Part shown: piece after piece, positions 1 to 17,562 of the stretch
Layout of the letters: each line of letters starts with the position of its first letter
Numbering within the stretch: position 1 is the stretch's first letter
Source of the DNA: Pseudomonadota bacterium
Lineage (GTDB): Bacteria > Pseudomonadota > Gammaproteobacteria > Burkholderiales > JABEVD01
Length of the DNA: 64,000 bases
Assembly: GCA_021835845.1 (NCBI GenBank)
Contig: JAKBJU010000003.1
Span: forward strand, 1-64,000
Direction: 5' to 3'
Translations under genes and position numbers: made by a program
The notes under the pieces: generated by a model
What the model was told of the DNA's origin: nothing
What the model saw: the letters and a program-made list of their open reading frames with translations, nothing else
Databases searched by the model: none

Positions 1-207
1 TTGACCATGGCCTGGTTCAGACGAAAACCAGCAGCCGGGCTGATACATCATTCGGATCGGGGAAGTCAGTATGCCAGCGAAGCATTCCAGGCCAAACTGA
101 AGGAATATGGAATGCTATGTTCAATGATCCGCAAAGGGAATTGCTGGGATAACGCGCCGACGGAAAGCTGGTTTGGCAACTTCAAGATCGAACGGGTCTA
201 TGGCGGA
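1..207 (+). pseudogene. IS3-family transposase (OrfB) fragment, truncated at both sides
   Basis: The frame is open from the window edge. It encodes the C-terminal part of an rve-type integrase core: an HSDRGSQY motif (second catalytic Asp) and NAPTESWFGNFKIE (catalytic Glu), as in IS3/IS2-type OrfB. IS3 similarity stops after about codon 68 (KIERVYG), where a complete transposase would continue for roughly 40 more residues. The reading frame then runs on by chance into the next gene. The 5' part lies outside the window, so whether the left half of the IS is intact cannot be judged. No terminal inverted repeat is visible at the break, so this is probably a deletion junction and not an IS end. 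Confidence 0.85.
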
Positions 208-234: not shown

Positions 235-663
235 ATGAACCCCACGAAAAAACAGATTGCCGCGGCCCTTGCCTTCTACTCTGGCGATCCAATCCCCAAA
301 AAGCCCGAGCGCAAAAAAAATGCACGACCTGAAGCGGCTGTCCTGGCTGCTGTCCTGAAGGTAATGCGGCTTCATCCGAAAGTCGCATGGATCGAGCGCA
401 TGAACACCGGAGCAGTCAAGACAGACGACAGATTCATCCGGTACGGGTTTCGAGGATGCTCTGATCTGATCGGGCAACTGAAGGACGGGCGCTTCATTGC
501 CATCGAATGCAAAGCCCCTGGAGGCAAGCTGTCTGAGGATCAAGCGGCATTCCTGGAACGAGTGCGGCAACATGGAGGCATGGCAATCCTCGCTCGATCT
601 CCTGATGAAGCATTACGGGCGCTGGAAGGCGTTAACACGATTTCAACGAGGAAACTGACATGA
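235..663 (+). CDS. VRR-NUC domain nuclease-like protein
   Basis: A 142-aa protein with a C-terminal VRR-NUC (PD-(D/E)xK superfamily) fold. Visible motifs are GFRGCSDLIG (acidic catalytic residue after the first strand) and IAIECKAP (the ExK pair), followed by the helix KLSEDQAAFLERVRQHGG. Stand-alone VRR-NUC proteins are common in phages and integrative elements, where they are inferred to be structure-specific or Holliday-junction nucleases. The frame is open from base 1, but the upstream part is transposase remnant, so I place the start at the ATG at 235. The stop overlaps the next start (ATGA at 660-663), suggesting translational coupling. Function in this element is unknown. Confidence 0.8.
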   Translation: MNPTKKQIAAALAFYSGDPIPKKPERKKNARPEAAVLAAVLKVMRLHPKVAWIERMNTGAVKTDDRFIRYGFRGCSDLIGQLKDGRFIAIECKAPGGKLSEDQAAFLERVRQHGGMAILARSPDEALRALEGVNTISTRKLT

Positions 664-1283
664 CGACCAGAGGAAAGAAGAAAACCCCGGCGACCACAAA
701 GGCGCATGATCCAGAACCCTGGAGGGGGCTGACAAATGTTACGCTTGCCCCTTCGTTCAATGCGGCTGCTGTCATAGCCGAATATGGCAAACCATTCGGG
801 GAGCAGGATGTTTATTTGCTCGCGGAGAGCCTTCGAGAATCGAACCAAAAGATTGCAGACGGCGACATGAAGCGAGTGGAGGCCATGTTGATAGACCAGG
901 CCCATGCCCTGCAATCCATGTTCATGAACTTCTCACGGCGGGCGCTGAATCAGCAATACCAAAGCAATCTGGAATCGTTCTTCAAGATGGCATTGAAGGC
1001 GCAAAATCAATGCCGGATGACGCTCGAAACTCTGGCGACAATCAAGAACCCGCCGATTGTATACGCGAAGCAGGCGAACGTAACGACAGGCCCGCAACAG
1101 GTCAATAACGGCATACCAGGCCCGCACGCGGGACAAAATCAAAATCGAGCGAACGAACTTTTGGAGCTGAAAGATGGCGAACGGCTGGACACCGGAACGG
1201 CGAGCGCGGCAAGCGGAACTGATAAGGCGCTGGCAACCCTGGACGAGATCAACAGGCCCCAGGAGTATCGAAGGGAAGGCTAG
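660..1283 (+). CDS. conserved hypothetical protein of a mobile element
   Basis: A 207-aa soluble protein without membrane segments. The central part (about residues 60-150) looks helical and contains the distinctive segments NPPIVYAKQANVTTGPQQVNNG and NELLELKDGERLDTG. I recognise these as a recurring family in proteobacterial phage-like islands, but I know of no function. The Lys-rich N-terminus (TTRGKKKTPATTKAHDP) may contact nucleic acid. It overlaps the VRR-NUC gene by 4 bp, and its last 110 bp overlap the next gene in another frame. The overlapping arrangement argues for one transcript. Confidence 0.75.
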   Translation: MTTRGKKKTPATTKAHDPEPWRGLTNVTLAPSFNAAAVIAEYGKPFGEQDVYLLAESLRESNQKIADGDMKRVEAMLIDQAHALQSMFMNFSRRALNQQYQSNLESFFKMALKAQNQCRMTLETLATIKNPPIVYAKQANVTTGPQQVNNGIPGPHAGQNQNRANELLELKDGERLDTGTASAASGTDKALATLDEINRPQEYRREG

Positions 1284-1416: not shown

Positions 1417-1591
1417 GGTACGCAGTTAAGTACGCATGGTTAACAGTATGGTTAACACGGAAACGGCAGTCGGTTGACAGGCTGGTTGACAGCAAAATAG
1501 GTGATGGTTGCCAGTGAGGTTGCCACAAAAAACGGCATTGTAACAAGGTAGGTTGTAACAGCCGATACAGGCGGTATCCAGTGAGGTATCC
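1417..1591. repeat. array of six paired short direct repeats (doublets)
   Basis: Six doublets were read directly. (1) GGTACGC/AGTACGC at 1417-1423 and 1429-1435. (2) GGTTAAC at 1438 and 1450. (3) GGTTGAC at 1472 and 1484. (4) GGTTGCC at 1506 and 1518. (5) TTGTAAC at 1538 and 1553. (6) GGTATCC at 1573 and 1585. Within a doublet the copies are identical (one mismatch in the first). Between doublets the central bases change while a GGT...C-A frame is kept. The period is 12 bp (5-bp spacer) in five of six and 15 bp in the fifth. After the first copy the sequence is AG in five of six (AA in the fifth), and after the second copy AC or AG in five of six. Doublet starts are 21, 34, 34, 32 and 35 bp apart. 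This is not a CRISPR, iteron or simple tandem repeat. Confidence 0.9.
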
Positions 1592-1772
1592 ACGGAATAG
1601 GGGGGGATTTCGATTCCTATGGCGCAACAATCCCTAGACCGTGCGCTTGCAGATTTTTTTGTTTCCACAAAATTCAGGTATGGGGTATCGAGACTGATCC
1701 GGGAACTCATGACCGCGGAAATACCCCGATTTTCCCCTTTTGTGTAACCCTGGCGTAACCCAGGCGGAAATG
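1592..1772. other. non-coding stretch between the doublet array and the tRNA terminator
   Basis: About 180 bp with no convincing gene. It contains a run of seven G (about 1600-1606) and single-copy sequence. Two minus-strand frames stay open across it and across the array, but neither has a recognisable product or a good ribosome-binding site. It includes the outlying GTAACCC pair. Confidence 0.5.
1744..1761. repeat. possible seventh, outlying doublet
   Basis: GTAACCC occurs at 1744-1750 and again at 1755-1761, separated by four bases and followed by AGG. It resembles the six doublets of 1417-1591 (7-mer pair, AG after the second copy). However, the period is 11, not 12 or 15, and it lies about 150 bp away, so membership is uncertain. 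Confidence 0.45.
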
Positions 1773-1807: not shown

Positions 1808-1883
1808 TGGTGCCGGCAATAGGAATCGAACCCACGACCTTCTGATTACAAATCAGCTGCTCTACCGTCTGAGCTATGCCGGC
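1808..1883 (-). tRNA. tRNA-Thr (anticodon TGT)
   Basis: On the minus strand a 76-nt cloverleaf is visible. The acceptor arms GCCGGCA and TGCCGGC pair, the D arm contains AGCTCAG...GAGCA, the anticodon loop is TTTGTAA (anticodon TGT) between GCTGA and TCAGA, and the T arm contains GGTTCGATTCC. A genomically encoded CCA follows discriminator A. The mobile-element debris at 1-1800 lies on its 3' side, where tRNA-targeting integrases usually leave att sites. No duplicated tRNA 3' end is visible inside the window. Confidence 0.97.
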
Positions 1884-13511: not shown

Positions 13512-14099
13512 TCAGAGGCTGCCCTTGGTCGATGGCGTTTCGCCATCGAGGCGCGCGTCGATGCAGCATGCCATTCTCAGCGCGCGCCCGAAAGCCTTGA
13601 AAATCGTCTCGCACTGGTGATGCGCATTCTTTCCCCTGAGATTGTCGATATGCAGGGTGACCAGGGCATGGTTGACGAAGCCCTGGAAGAATTCGCGAAC
13701 CAGTTCGACATCGAATTCCCCCACCATGCCGCGCGTGAATGGCGCGTCCATGACCAGCCCGGGCCTGCCGGAGAGGTCGACGACGACCCTGGAGAGAGCC
13801 TCGTCCAGCGGGACGTAGGCGTGGCCATAGCGGGATATGCCCTTCTTGTCCCCGATCGCGCGGGAAAACGCCTGCCCCAGGGTGATGCCGATGTCTTCCA
13901 CCGTGTGGTGGCCGTCGATGTGCAGATCTCCCTTCGCACTGACATCGAGGTCGATCAGGCCGTGCCTCGCGATCTGGTCGAGCATGTGGTCGAAGAAGCC
14001 TATTCCGGTGGAAATCGAGGATTTGCCGGTGCCATCCAGGGCGATCCTGACGGAAATCTCGGTTTCGAGCGTGCTTCTTTTGACTTCAGCTTCCCGCAT
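13512..14099 (-). CDS. hisB: imidazoleglycerol-phosphate dehydratase (monofunctional)
   Basis: A 195-aa enzyme for histidine step 6, with two pseudo-repeated halves. Mn ligands are in [29 protein letters not shown], and [10 protein letters not shown] plus [20 protein letters not shown] 14099 ([15 protein letters not shown]) is preferred over the in-frame upstream ATG at 14153, which lies inside hisD. No HisB phosphatase domain is attached. Confidence 0.95.
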
Positions 14100-14109
14100 G
14101 ATGTGTGTC

Positions 14110-15414
14110 CTATGAGTTTTCGAAACGAAAGGCAGCGGACCGGGCATGCGCATCCAGCCCTTCGCCGATGGCGAGCGTTTGCGCTACCCGCCCCAGGGTT
14201 GCCGCGCCCGCCTGCGACACCGATATCAGGCTGGTCCGCTTCTGGAAGTCGTAGACTCCCAGCGGGGAGGAGAAGCGCGCGGTTCTCGATGTGGGCAGGA
14301 CATGATTCGGCCCTGCGCAGTAATCTCCGAGCGACTCCGAAGTATAGCGGCCCATGAAGATCGCCCCGGCATGCCGGATCTTGTCGAGCAGCGCTTCCGG
14401 GTCTTCCACGGAAAGTTCGAGGTGTTCGGGGGCGATTTGGTTCGCGATCTCGCACGCTTGTGGAAGATCCTTCACCTTGATCAGCGCGCCGCGCCTGCCG
14501 AGCGATGCCGCTATCACTGCGCGCCTCGCCATTTGCGGGAGGAGCTTTTCCAAGCTCCTCTCGACGGCATCGAGGAAGTCCATATCCGGGCAGAGCAGGA
14601 TGGCCTGGGCGATTTCGTCGTGCTCGGCCTGGGAGAAAAGATCCATGGCGATCCAGTCCGGATTCGTCCTGCCGTCGCAGATCACCAGGATTTCGGACGG
14701 GCCTGCGATCATGTCTATGCCGACCGTTCCGAAAACCCTGCGCTTGGCCTCTGCCACATAGGCGTTGCCGGGCCCCACGATCTTGTCGACCTGGGGAACC
14801 GTTTGGGTGCCGTAGGCGAGCGCACCCACCGCCTGGGCGCCGCCCACGCAGAATACCCTGTCGACATGGCAGATCGCGGCAGCGGCGAGCACCAGTTCGT
14901 TCTGCTCTCCTCCCGGTGTCGGGACGACCATGATGAGTTCGGATACGCCTGCAACCTTGGCGGGAATCGCGTTCATCAGCACCGAAGAAGGATAGGCTGC
15001 CTTCCCGCCCGGAACATAAAGACCGACCCTGTCAAGCGGCGTGATCTTCTGCCCGAGCATGGTGCCGTCTTCCTCGACGTGGCGCCAGGAAGCCTGCAAC
15101 TGTTTTTCGTGGTAGATTCTGATCCTGTGCGCAGCCTGCTCGAGCGCTTCGCGCTGGGCCCGTGGCAAATTCTGCAAGGCCGCTTCGAGTCGCGATCTCG
15201 GCAGGTCGAGCGCGTTTATGGAAGCCGCATCCAGTCTGTCGAAGCGCCGCGTATAGTCGAGCAGTGCGGCATCCCCCCGTTTCTGGATGTCGTCGAGTAT
15301 GGAGGCGACGGTTTCCTCTAATTTCGGGTCGCGCGCGCTTTCGTAGGCGAGCAGGGCTCTCAGCCCGGAATCGAATCCGGAAGCCTGGGTGTCGAGACGG
15401 GAAATGATGGGCAT
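14110..15414 (-). CDS. hisD: histidinol dehydrogenase
   Basis: A 434-aa NAD- and zinc-dependent enzyme for the last two oxidations of histidine synthesis. The signature includes [21 protein letters not shown] and [12 protein letters not shown], the catalytic and zinc region [15 protein letters not shown] and [11 protein letters not shown], then [13 protein letters not shown]. Complete. In many betaproteobacteria hisC lies between hisD and hisB; here the two are 10 bp apart, so hisC must be elsewhere. Confidence 0.96.
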
Positions 15415-15434
15415 GATTCGATTCTACACGAAAT

Positions 15435-17562
<2,128 letters not shown>

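Follow-up and report, generated by a model that had tools for sequence, protein, structure and literature searches.

A row of short repeated words lies close to one end of the 64,000-nucleotide stretch of DNA analysed here (the window, itself an end of contig C32), and the question it raises is why the copies agree within each pair and differ from one pair to the next. A script search for exact repeats found six matched doublets in a row at 1417-1598, each made of one word written twice, with a spacing of 12 bp in five units and of 15 bp in the fifth (TTGTAACA). We propose, with a probability of about 0.83, that the array would consist of packaging-initiation (pac-type) sites, or mimics of them, placed at the att-proximal end of a small integrative satellite and addressed to many unrelated helper phages.

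The array and the island end that carries it

The doublets described in the earlier note are real. Dinucleotide-preserving shuffles of 200 bp gave a mean of 0.18 seven-mer doublets and a maximum of 2 (500 trials), no stretch in the rest of the 64 kb held more than 2, and four of the six words are absent elsewhere in the 64 kb. Across nine genomes of the genus, the pattern GGTNNNCA-N4-GGTNNNCA was matched about 89 times, and the matched words among them fell in the window array (4), in the array of a relative (G002:C5; 2) and in one other place.

Two familiar explanations were rejected at this point. The array is not a coding tandem repeat, because the phases of the words differ and stops occur in all three forward frames; in the window, Pfam and PHROG searches and a check of the frames revealed no coding repeat. 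Nor is it a CRISPR, which needs one repeat with unique spacers, whereas here the repeated words differ between units.

Table 1. Features of the truncated element and of its array in the window
Feature	Position	Strand	Details
IS3-like transposase, C-terminal fragment	1-144	+	rve domain; Pfam rve E 1.4e-8, residues 3-48 of the frame
VRR-NUC domain gene	235-663	+	Pfam VRR_NUC E 1.2e-8; PHROG 93 endonuclease E 9.7e-18; start at 235 probable, read from the sequence
207 aa ORF, function not assigned	660-1283	+	conserved neighbour of the HGG gene across related islands
Small HGG-motif protein gene, 74 aa	1174-1398	+	overlaps the 207 aa ORF; 80 relatives kept from genome contigs
Unit 1, word ACG	1417-1436	+	GGTACGCA / AGTACGCA, spacing 12; exact only as GTACGCA (1418/1430), because the two copies start with different bases, G and A; predicted TerS triple E/D-G-R
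Unit 2, word TAA	1437-1462	+	GGTTAACA x2 and CACGGAA tail; exact repeat TGGTTAACA at 1437/1449; TerS triples H-V-H/N/K/D
Unit 3, word TGA	1472-1492	+	GGTTGACA x2; exact repeat GGTTGACAG at 1472/1484; single TerS reader found (L469, H-T-T)
Unit 4, word TGC	1506-1526	+	GGTTGCCA x2, starts 1506/1518; TerS triple H-T-Q
Unit 5, odd word TGTAACA x2	1538-1565	+	spacing 15; exact repeat TTGTAACA at 1538/1553; equals the repeat in TerS L377; word also in the L586 and AH14b arrays
Unit 6, word ATC	1573-1598	+	GGTATCCA x2 (1573/1585) and CACGGAA tail; TerS triple H-G-N
Doublet GTAACCC-TGGC-GTAACCC	1743-1766	+	beside the tRNA; tandem repeat
tRNA-Thr (TGT)	1808-1883	-	ARAGORN

The features around the array follow the order VRR-NUC gene, 207 aa ORF, HGG protein, array and tRNA-Thr (Table 1), and this element is probably the right end of a satellite-like island. 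Its left part is missing, because the window begins inside the IS3-like transposase at the contig end. The 207 aa ORF has relatives of 36-45% identity in the array-bearing genomes G426-G429 and gave no Pfam or PHROG match. For the HGG protein, no match was obtained in annotated phages, and plasmids yielded only five relatives, each under 50% identity. A second HGG gene remnant of the same genome (L002, 361-1220, in G000:C14) lies near a transposase fragment and a tRNA, with the doublet GGGTTACAAGGGGGTTACATGG.

The tRNA-Thr is the probable attachment site of the element, and the related islands L026 and L417 also end at a tRNA-Thr. The separate doublet beside it is likely an arm-type site of the element's integrase, analogous to the two copies of GGTGATAGCCC that precede the tRNA-Thr in L026. 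Among the features that define a satellite, the window shows the tRNA end only, and its element is truncated; an integrase with an att site is present in the relatives L416, L417 and L637, and the first two of these also have primase-type genes, with no terminase or capsid gene recognised in either. The window's own genome, an incomplete assembly, yielded no PHROG 1206 prophage.

Words within phage terS genes and the residues that predict them

Scanning of viral contigs for GGTNNNCA-N4-GGTNNNCACGGAA returned at least 120 stretches, at least 89 of them with matched nnn, and in most of the matched stretches the repeats lie in frame within one gene (e.g., ...LVTTRTVTTSVTTE...). This gene encodes the terminase small subunit (TerS) of PHROG 1206 (E 5e-69), and in annotated phages its neighbour is terL. 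A single word is found per phage, mostly in two or three copies, three copies being set at 15+12 bp: ACG is found in phages HK639, SEN34 and Edno5; ATC in USP_18, 8P and AP1; TTC in Cruim01; and TGC in PSTCR7lys. All six window words recur as in-gene repeats of PHROG 1206 terS. Readers for ACG, TGC, ATC, TAA and TGA were found among the TerS proteins, the last in one TerS, and the reader of TGTAACA is likewise one TerS (L377), with an inserted helix region and 13 bp (TGTAACAGCCGAT) in common with the window. Two marks of a pac-type sequence were thus found for these words, which in PHROG 1206 phages lie in or beside the terS of the phage that uses them, and which co-vary with the DNA-binding specificity of TerS, as described below.

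The co-variation was analysed on 134 distinct TerS, a set fetched partly by word patterns and partly by protein similarity alone, in which the word was called without reference to its form. A 12-spaced repeat is present in 124 of the 134, and in 123 of these 124 it has the form GGTnnnC. Over 72 TerS clusters, and apart from the codons of the word itself, the columns that carried information were residues of the recognition helix, within the motif G-[VI]-[ST]-X1-X2-A-I-X3-K, where X2 pairs with n1, X3 with n2 and X1 with n3. Glycine at X2 goes with A at n1, and T, V, Q or P with T (72/72). At X3, N goes with T at n2 (20/21), R with C (17/17), Q with G or A, and S or A mostly with A. At X1, E or D goes with G at n3 (17/17), and H with C or A.

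From this helix triple, the word was called correctly in a leave-one-out test in 58 of 66 cases; taking the word from the TerS most similar over the remainder of the protein was right in 27 of 72. Every one of the 107 TerS pairs that are more than 70% identical and have different words also differs in the triple, as in a pair of 92% identity with E-G-R and ACG in one member versus H-T-N and TTC in the other. For divergent phages outside the table, 5 of 5 words were right where the triple was tabulated, three of the five being close relatives, and ENT1 and PS-1 showed the new words AAC and GAC, their X2 residues likewise being new, and had the C at n3 expected for X1=H. No motif was found in the TerS of Y7 and Y11. 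As far as sequence comparison goes, the GGTnnnC word is predicted by three recognition-helix residues of TerS.

In AF2 models, X1, X2 and X3 occupy positions 1, 2 and 5 of the third helix of the helix-turn-helix (HTH), in a block with a mean pLDDT of 81-85, good prediction being confined to the N-terminal HTH. A search by sequence for TerS relatives in the PDB gave chance matches only, and Foldseek with the low-confidence AF2 model of TerS returned nothing below E 1.

The three possibilities raised in the earlier note can be judged from these data. A coding repeat with four-residue periodicity describes the words inside phage terS genes and does not describe the window array. The idea of a DNA-level code with a dimeric reader comes close: there is a code of residues to bases, and the reader is probably an oligomeric phage TerS. 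An enzyme that duplicates sites or writes words is not supported. The agreement of copies within a doublet would come from their being read by a single TerS specificity, and the words would differ between units because each unit addresses a different phage.

Separately, the Klebsiella phages L793, L794 and L795 have a TerS with the E-G-R helix and a different C-terminal part, and show four or more copies of GGTACGC at a spacing of 13, not in one frame; with this spacing, the repeat must be regarded as an element of the DNA, not as one that codes for repeated residues.

Arrays in other islands and in the satellite phiAH14b

The expectation that related elements would carry different words under the same doublet rule was confirmed, both in loci linked to the HGG gene and in other arrays. 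Homologues of the HGG gene are sometimes accompanied by arrays with other word sets: ACG x2 and ATC x3 in L006, from the same genus; ACG x3 in L026; ACG x3 and TAA x2-3 in L074; TCG and TAA in L014; and ATC in L066. These five HGG loci with arrays compare with a mean of 0.2 in shuffles of the same loci. The common form of the units is GGTnnnCA repeated two or three times, with a last spacing of 12 and a previous one of 13-15, often ended by CACGGAA, a tail that is often retained outside coding frames.

A survey of 398 Pseudomonadaceae genomes with a strict pattern gave 42 exact matches, 26 of them with matched words, against fewer than one expected under random word pairing. Thirty loci from this survey were fetched; one proved to be a terS gene, and most of the other loci with matched words were arrays, of up to five words. 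Coding 12-bp repeats in L429, L431, L447 and L491, obtained in lax scans, were left out. In 20 of the 21 loci with two or more units, all units lie on one strand, for which the coin-toss probability is about 1e-5, some of the 21 loci being related.

The islands L416 and L417, of roughly 8 kb, comprise an integrase, an AlpA-like gene, a Toprim primase, ORF200, the HGG gene, the array and the att/tRNA end; the integrase of L416 has an Arm-DNA-bind_3 domain, and a DUF3987 helicase is also present there. Primases of the Toprim and DUF927 type were found in L637, L668 and L672. In L669, L671, L674 and L675, the arrays adjoin type I restriction-modification genes, with an integrase in the first two. 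The genomes G426 and G427 bear arrays together with prophages that encode distant PHROG 1206-like TerS devoid of an in-gene repeat, and therefore no resident helper was identified in them. The word GCG is used in the arrays L152, L652, L660 and G555:C1:909811; a TerS reader carrying this word was sought, and none was found.

Several minor observations concern the surroundings of these arrays. That of L673 likewise lies beside type I restriction-modification genes, and the integrase-bearing island of L669 adjoins ssrA (tmRNA). L093 and L152, on one contig, are two similar multi-word arrays, as if duplicated. In L201, L113 and L637, arrays occur near phage tail genes (tape measure, baseplate hub), sometimes with the HGG gene; these may be satellites equipped with tail parts of their own, or cases of two elements joined in one contig.

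The Pseudomonas satellite phiAH14b and its helper phiAH14a are circularly permuted and, as their authors inferred, are packaged by a headful mechanism into the same capsids, those of AH14a; no certain terS was found and no pac site was described by them (PMC4936722). Among the elements compared here, AH14b is the one for which transfer in helper particles has been demonstrated experimentally, in that work. The gene order of AH14b is the same as in L637, and it has an integrase, AlpA, a Toprim primase, a DUF927-type helicase and a multi-word array, and neither a terminase nor a complete capsid set. The window element differs from it in being truncated and in coming from another host group. The words of the AH14b array are ATC, TGTAACA, TCG x3 and TTC, and a second class of doublets, nnnGACA...nnnGACGGA, is found at 14959-15810 (L677), with TTT, TGA, CTG, CTT and CTA, all on one strand.

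The form nnnGACA...nnnGACGGA is also present in AH14a-like phages, where it occupies the gap that precedes a PHROG 546 gene adjacent to terL, and this gene, p60 of AH14a, is the probable terS. TTCTTGACAGGCTCTAGACGGAT occurs once in the 55 kb of AH14a, directly upstream of p60, and AH14b carries two close mimics of it, TTCTGGACAGGCTCTGGACGGAT and TTCTTGACAGGTCTTGACGGAT, a match obtained once each copy was permitted a variable base and the interval between copies an optional one; no long exact doublet common to AH14a and AH14b was found. A packaged satellite thus holds mimics of its helper's site among mimics of many others. Because the TerS of AH14a is of a different family, the pair backs the principle of the array and not, directly, the GGTnnnC code.

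Proposed packaging labels, rival readings and known systems

TerS oligomers display several HTH domains and start packaging at pac or cos, and headful packaging of short satellites yields concatemers. Against this background, each unit would have been copied from, or would have converged with, the TerS-recognition site of a different phage, and would consist of GGTnnnCA written twice (ancestrally three times) at intervals of about 12-15 bp, often closed by CACGGAA. The TerS of the phage, an oligomer displaying several HTH domains, would read every copy, positions 2, 5 and 1 of its recognition helix reading n1, n2 and n3, respectively. During growth of any phage whose TerS fits one of the words, the terminase of that phage would begin headful packaging on the satellite DNA present in the cell, and many words would mean a wider helper range. 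The window array seems, from its words, to hold the address labels of at least six different phages, and the element seems to travel in the particles of other viruses. TerS binding, packaging from the array sites, the benefit of many helpers and the former mobility of the window element are what we infer from these comparisons.

The same recognition could serve another end, with the array titrating the TerS of incoming phages and so shielding either the host or a rival element, with no part in the packaging of its own DNA. This would suit words that match many phages and the several arrays that adjoin type I restriction-modification genes; yet a few sites make a weak sponge against a ring oligomer, the shared orientation of the units in 20 of the 21 loci is not needed for it, and AH14b has such an array and is packaged (PMC4936722). 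We consider this alternative unlikely as a replacement for packaging, and the two roles could coexist.

It is very improbable that the units are functionless fragments of decayed terS genes left by recombination. The units do each resemble some 45 bp of terS, and L148 has the appearance of a fragment of this kind, but only the repeat unit and the CACGGAA tail are retained, flanking terS homology was sought and none was detected, and the words of many phages stand together in one orientation. Still less credit can be given to arm-type sites of several tyrosine integrases using one tRNA: the array is near a tRNA att site, arms are often direct repeats and the doublet at 1743-1766 is probably of that kind, but the words co-vary with the TerS helix residues and occur inside terS genes, and within the stretches read of L668, L672, L674 and L675 neither an integrase nor a tRNA adjoins the arrays. 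Replication iterons of P4-type alpha/primase proteins were rejected as scarcely credible: the frame GGTnnnCAG resembles the P4 iteron, GGTGAACAG, and other HGG loci have iteron-like clusters such as TGCGGAAG, but these clusters are separate from the arrays, the words co-vary with TerS, and the element has six different words where one iteron sequence would be expected.

Packaging labels for several helpers, as proposed here, have partial counterparts in known systems. P4-like satellites and PICIs likewise use the packaging signal (cos or pac) of the helper, and are usually described with one such signal; in contrast, six words follow one another in the window array, each suited to a different TerS specificity, and the relatives read showed no genes for capsid remodelling. 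PICMI, the minimal satellites of Vibrio, share several traits, being small, without capsid remodelling and packaged as concatemers in full-size heads by a headful-like mechanism, but they differ in host and gene set, and no pac site was identified there (PMC10803314). The pac sites of P22 and SPP1 lie within or beside terS, and a review describes pac recognition by TerS as weak and as unresolved four decades after its discovery (PMC9611059); here, unlike in those phages, the sites are spaced direct repeats with a word that co-varies with the recognition helix. An analogy of strategy is offered by mobilizable plasmids, for which several oriT sites or mimics are mentioned in work cited in PMC11389934: one hitchhiker has several recognition sites for several helpers, with phage packaging and TerS sites here instead of conjugation and relaxase sites.

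No earlier report of multi-specificity arrays or of a three-residue/three-base TerS code was found in open-access PMC text; the use of a helper's packaging site by satellites is already known. The residue-base code can be read from sequence and is directly testable, and it would allow satellites and defence islands to be paired with the phages able to package them, a prediction that has been called hard because cos/pac motifs are often unknown (PMC11389934). Read as packaging labels, the arrays would represent a multi-helper strategy parallel to that of plasmids with several oriTs, and would offer a concrete route of transfer for restriction-modification islands.

With moderate confidence, we extend this reading to widespread proteobacterial islands, many with restriction-modification cargo, that would keep an "address book" listing the packaging signals of numerous unrelated phages. 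The three-residue/three-base TerS code would be interchangeable, so that the DNA sequence by itself would reveal the helper range. The same arrays would also hold words proper to other TerS families (class B, found upstream of PHROG 546 genes, and class C, with a period of 10).

Finally, a third class of doublets was observed in phiAH14b (L677) at 13704-13890 and at 14846, with a period of 10: TGTCAACA, TGTAAGGT, TGACAGGT, GTTAAGT and GTCAGGT. These may be the sites of another TerS family.
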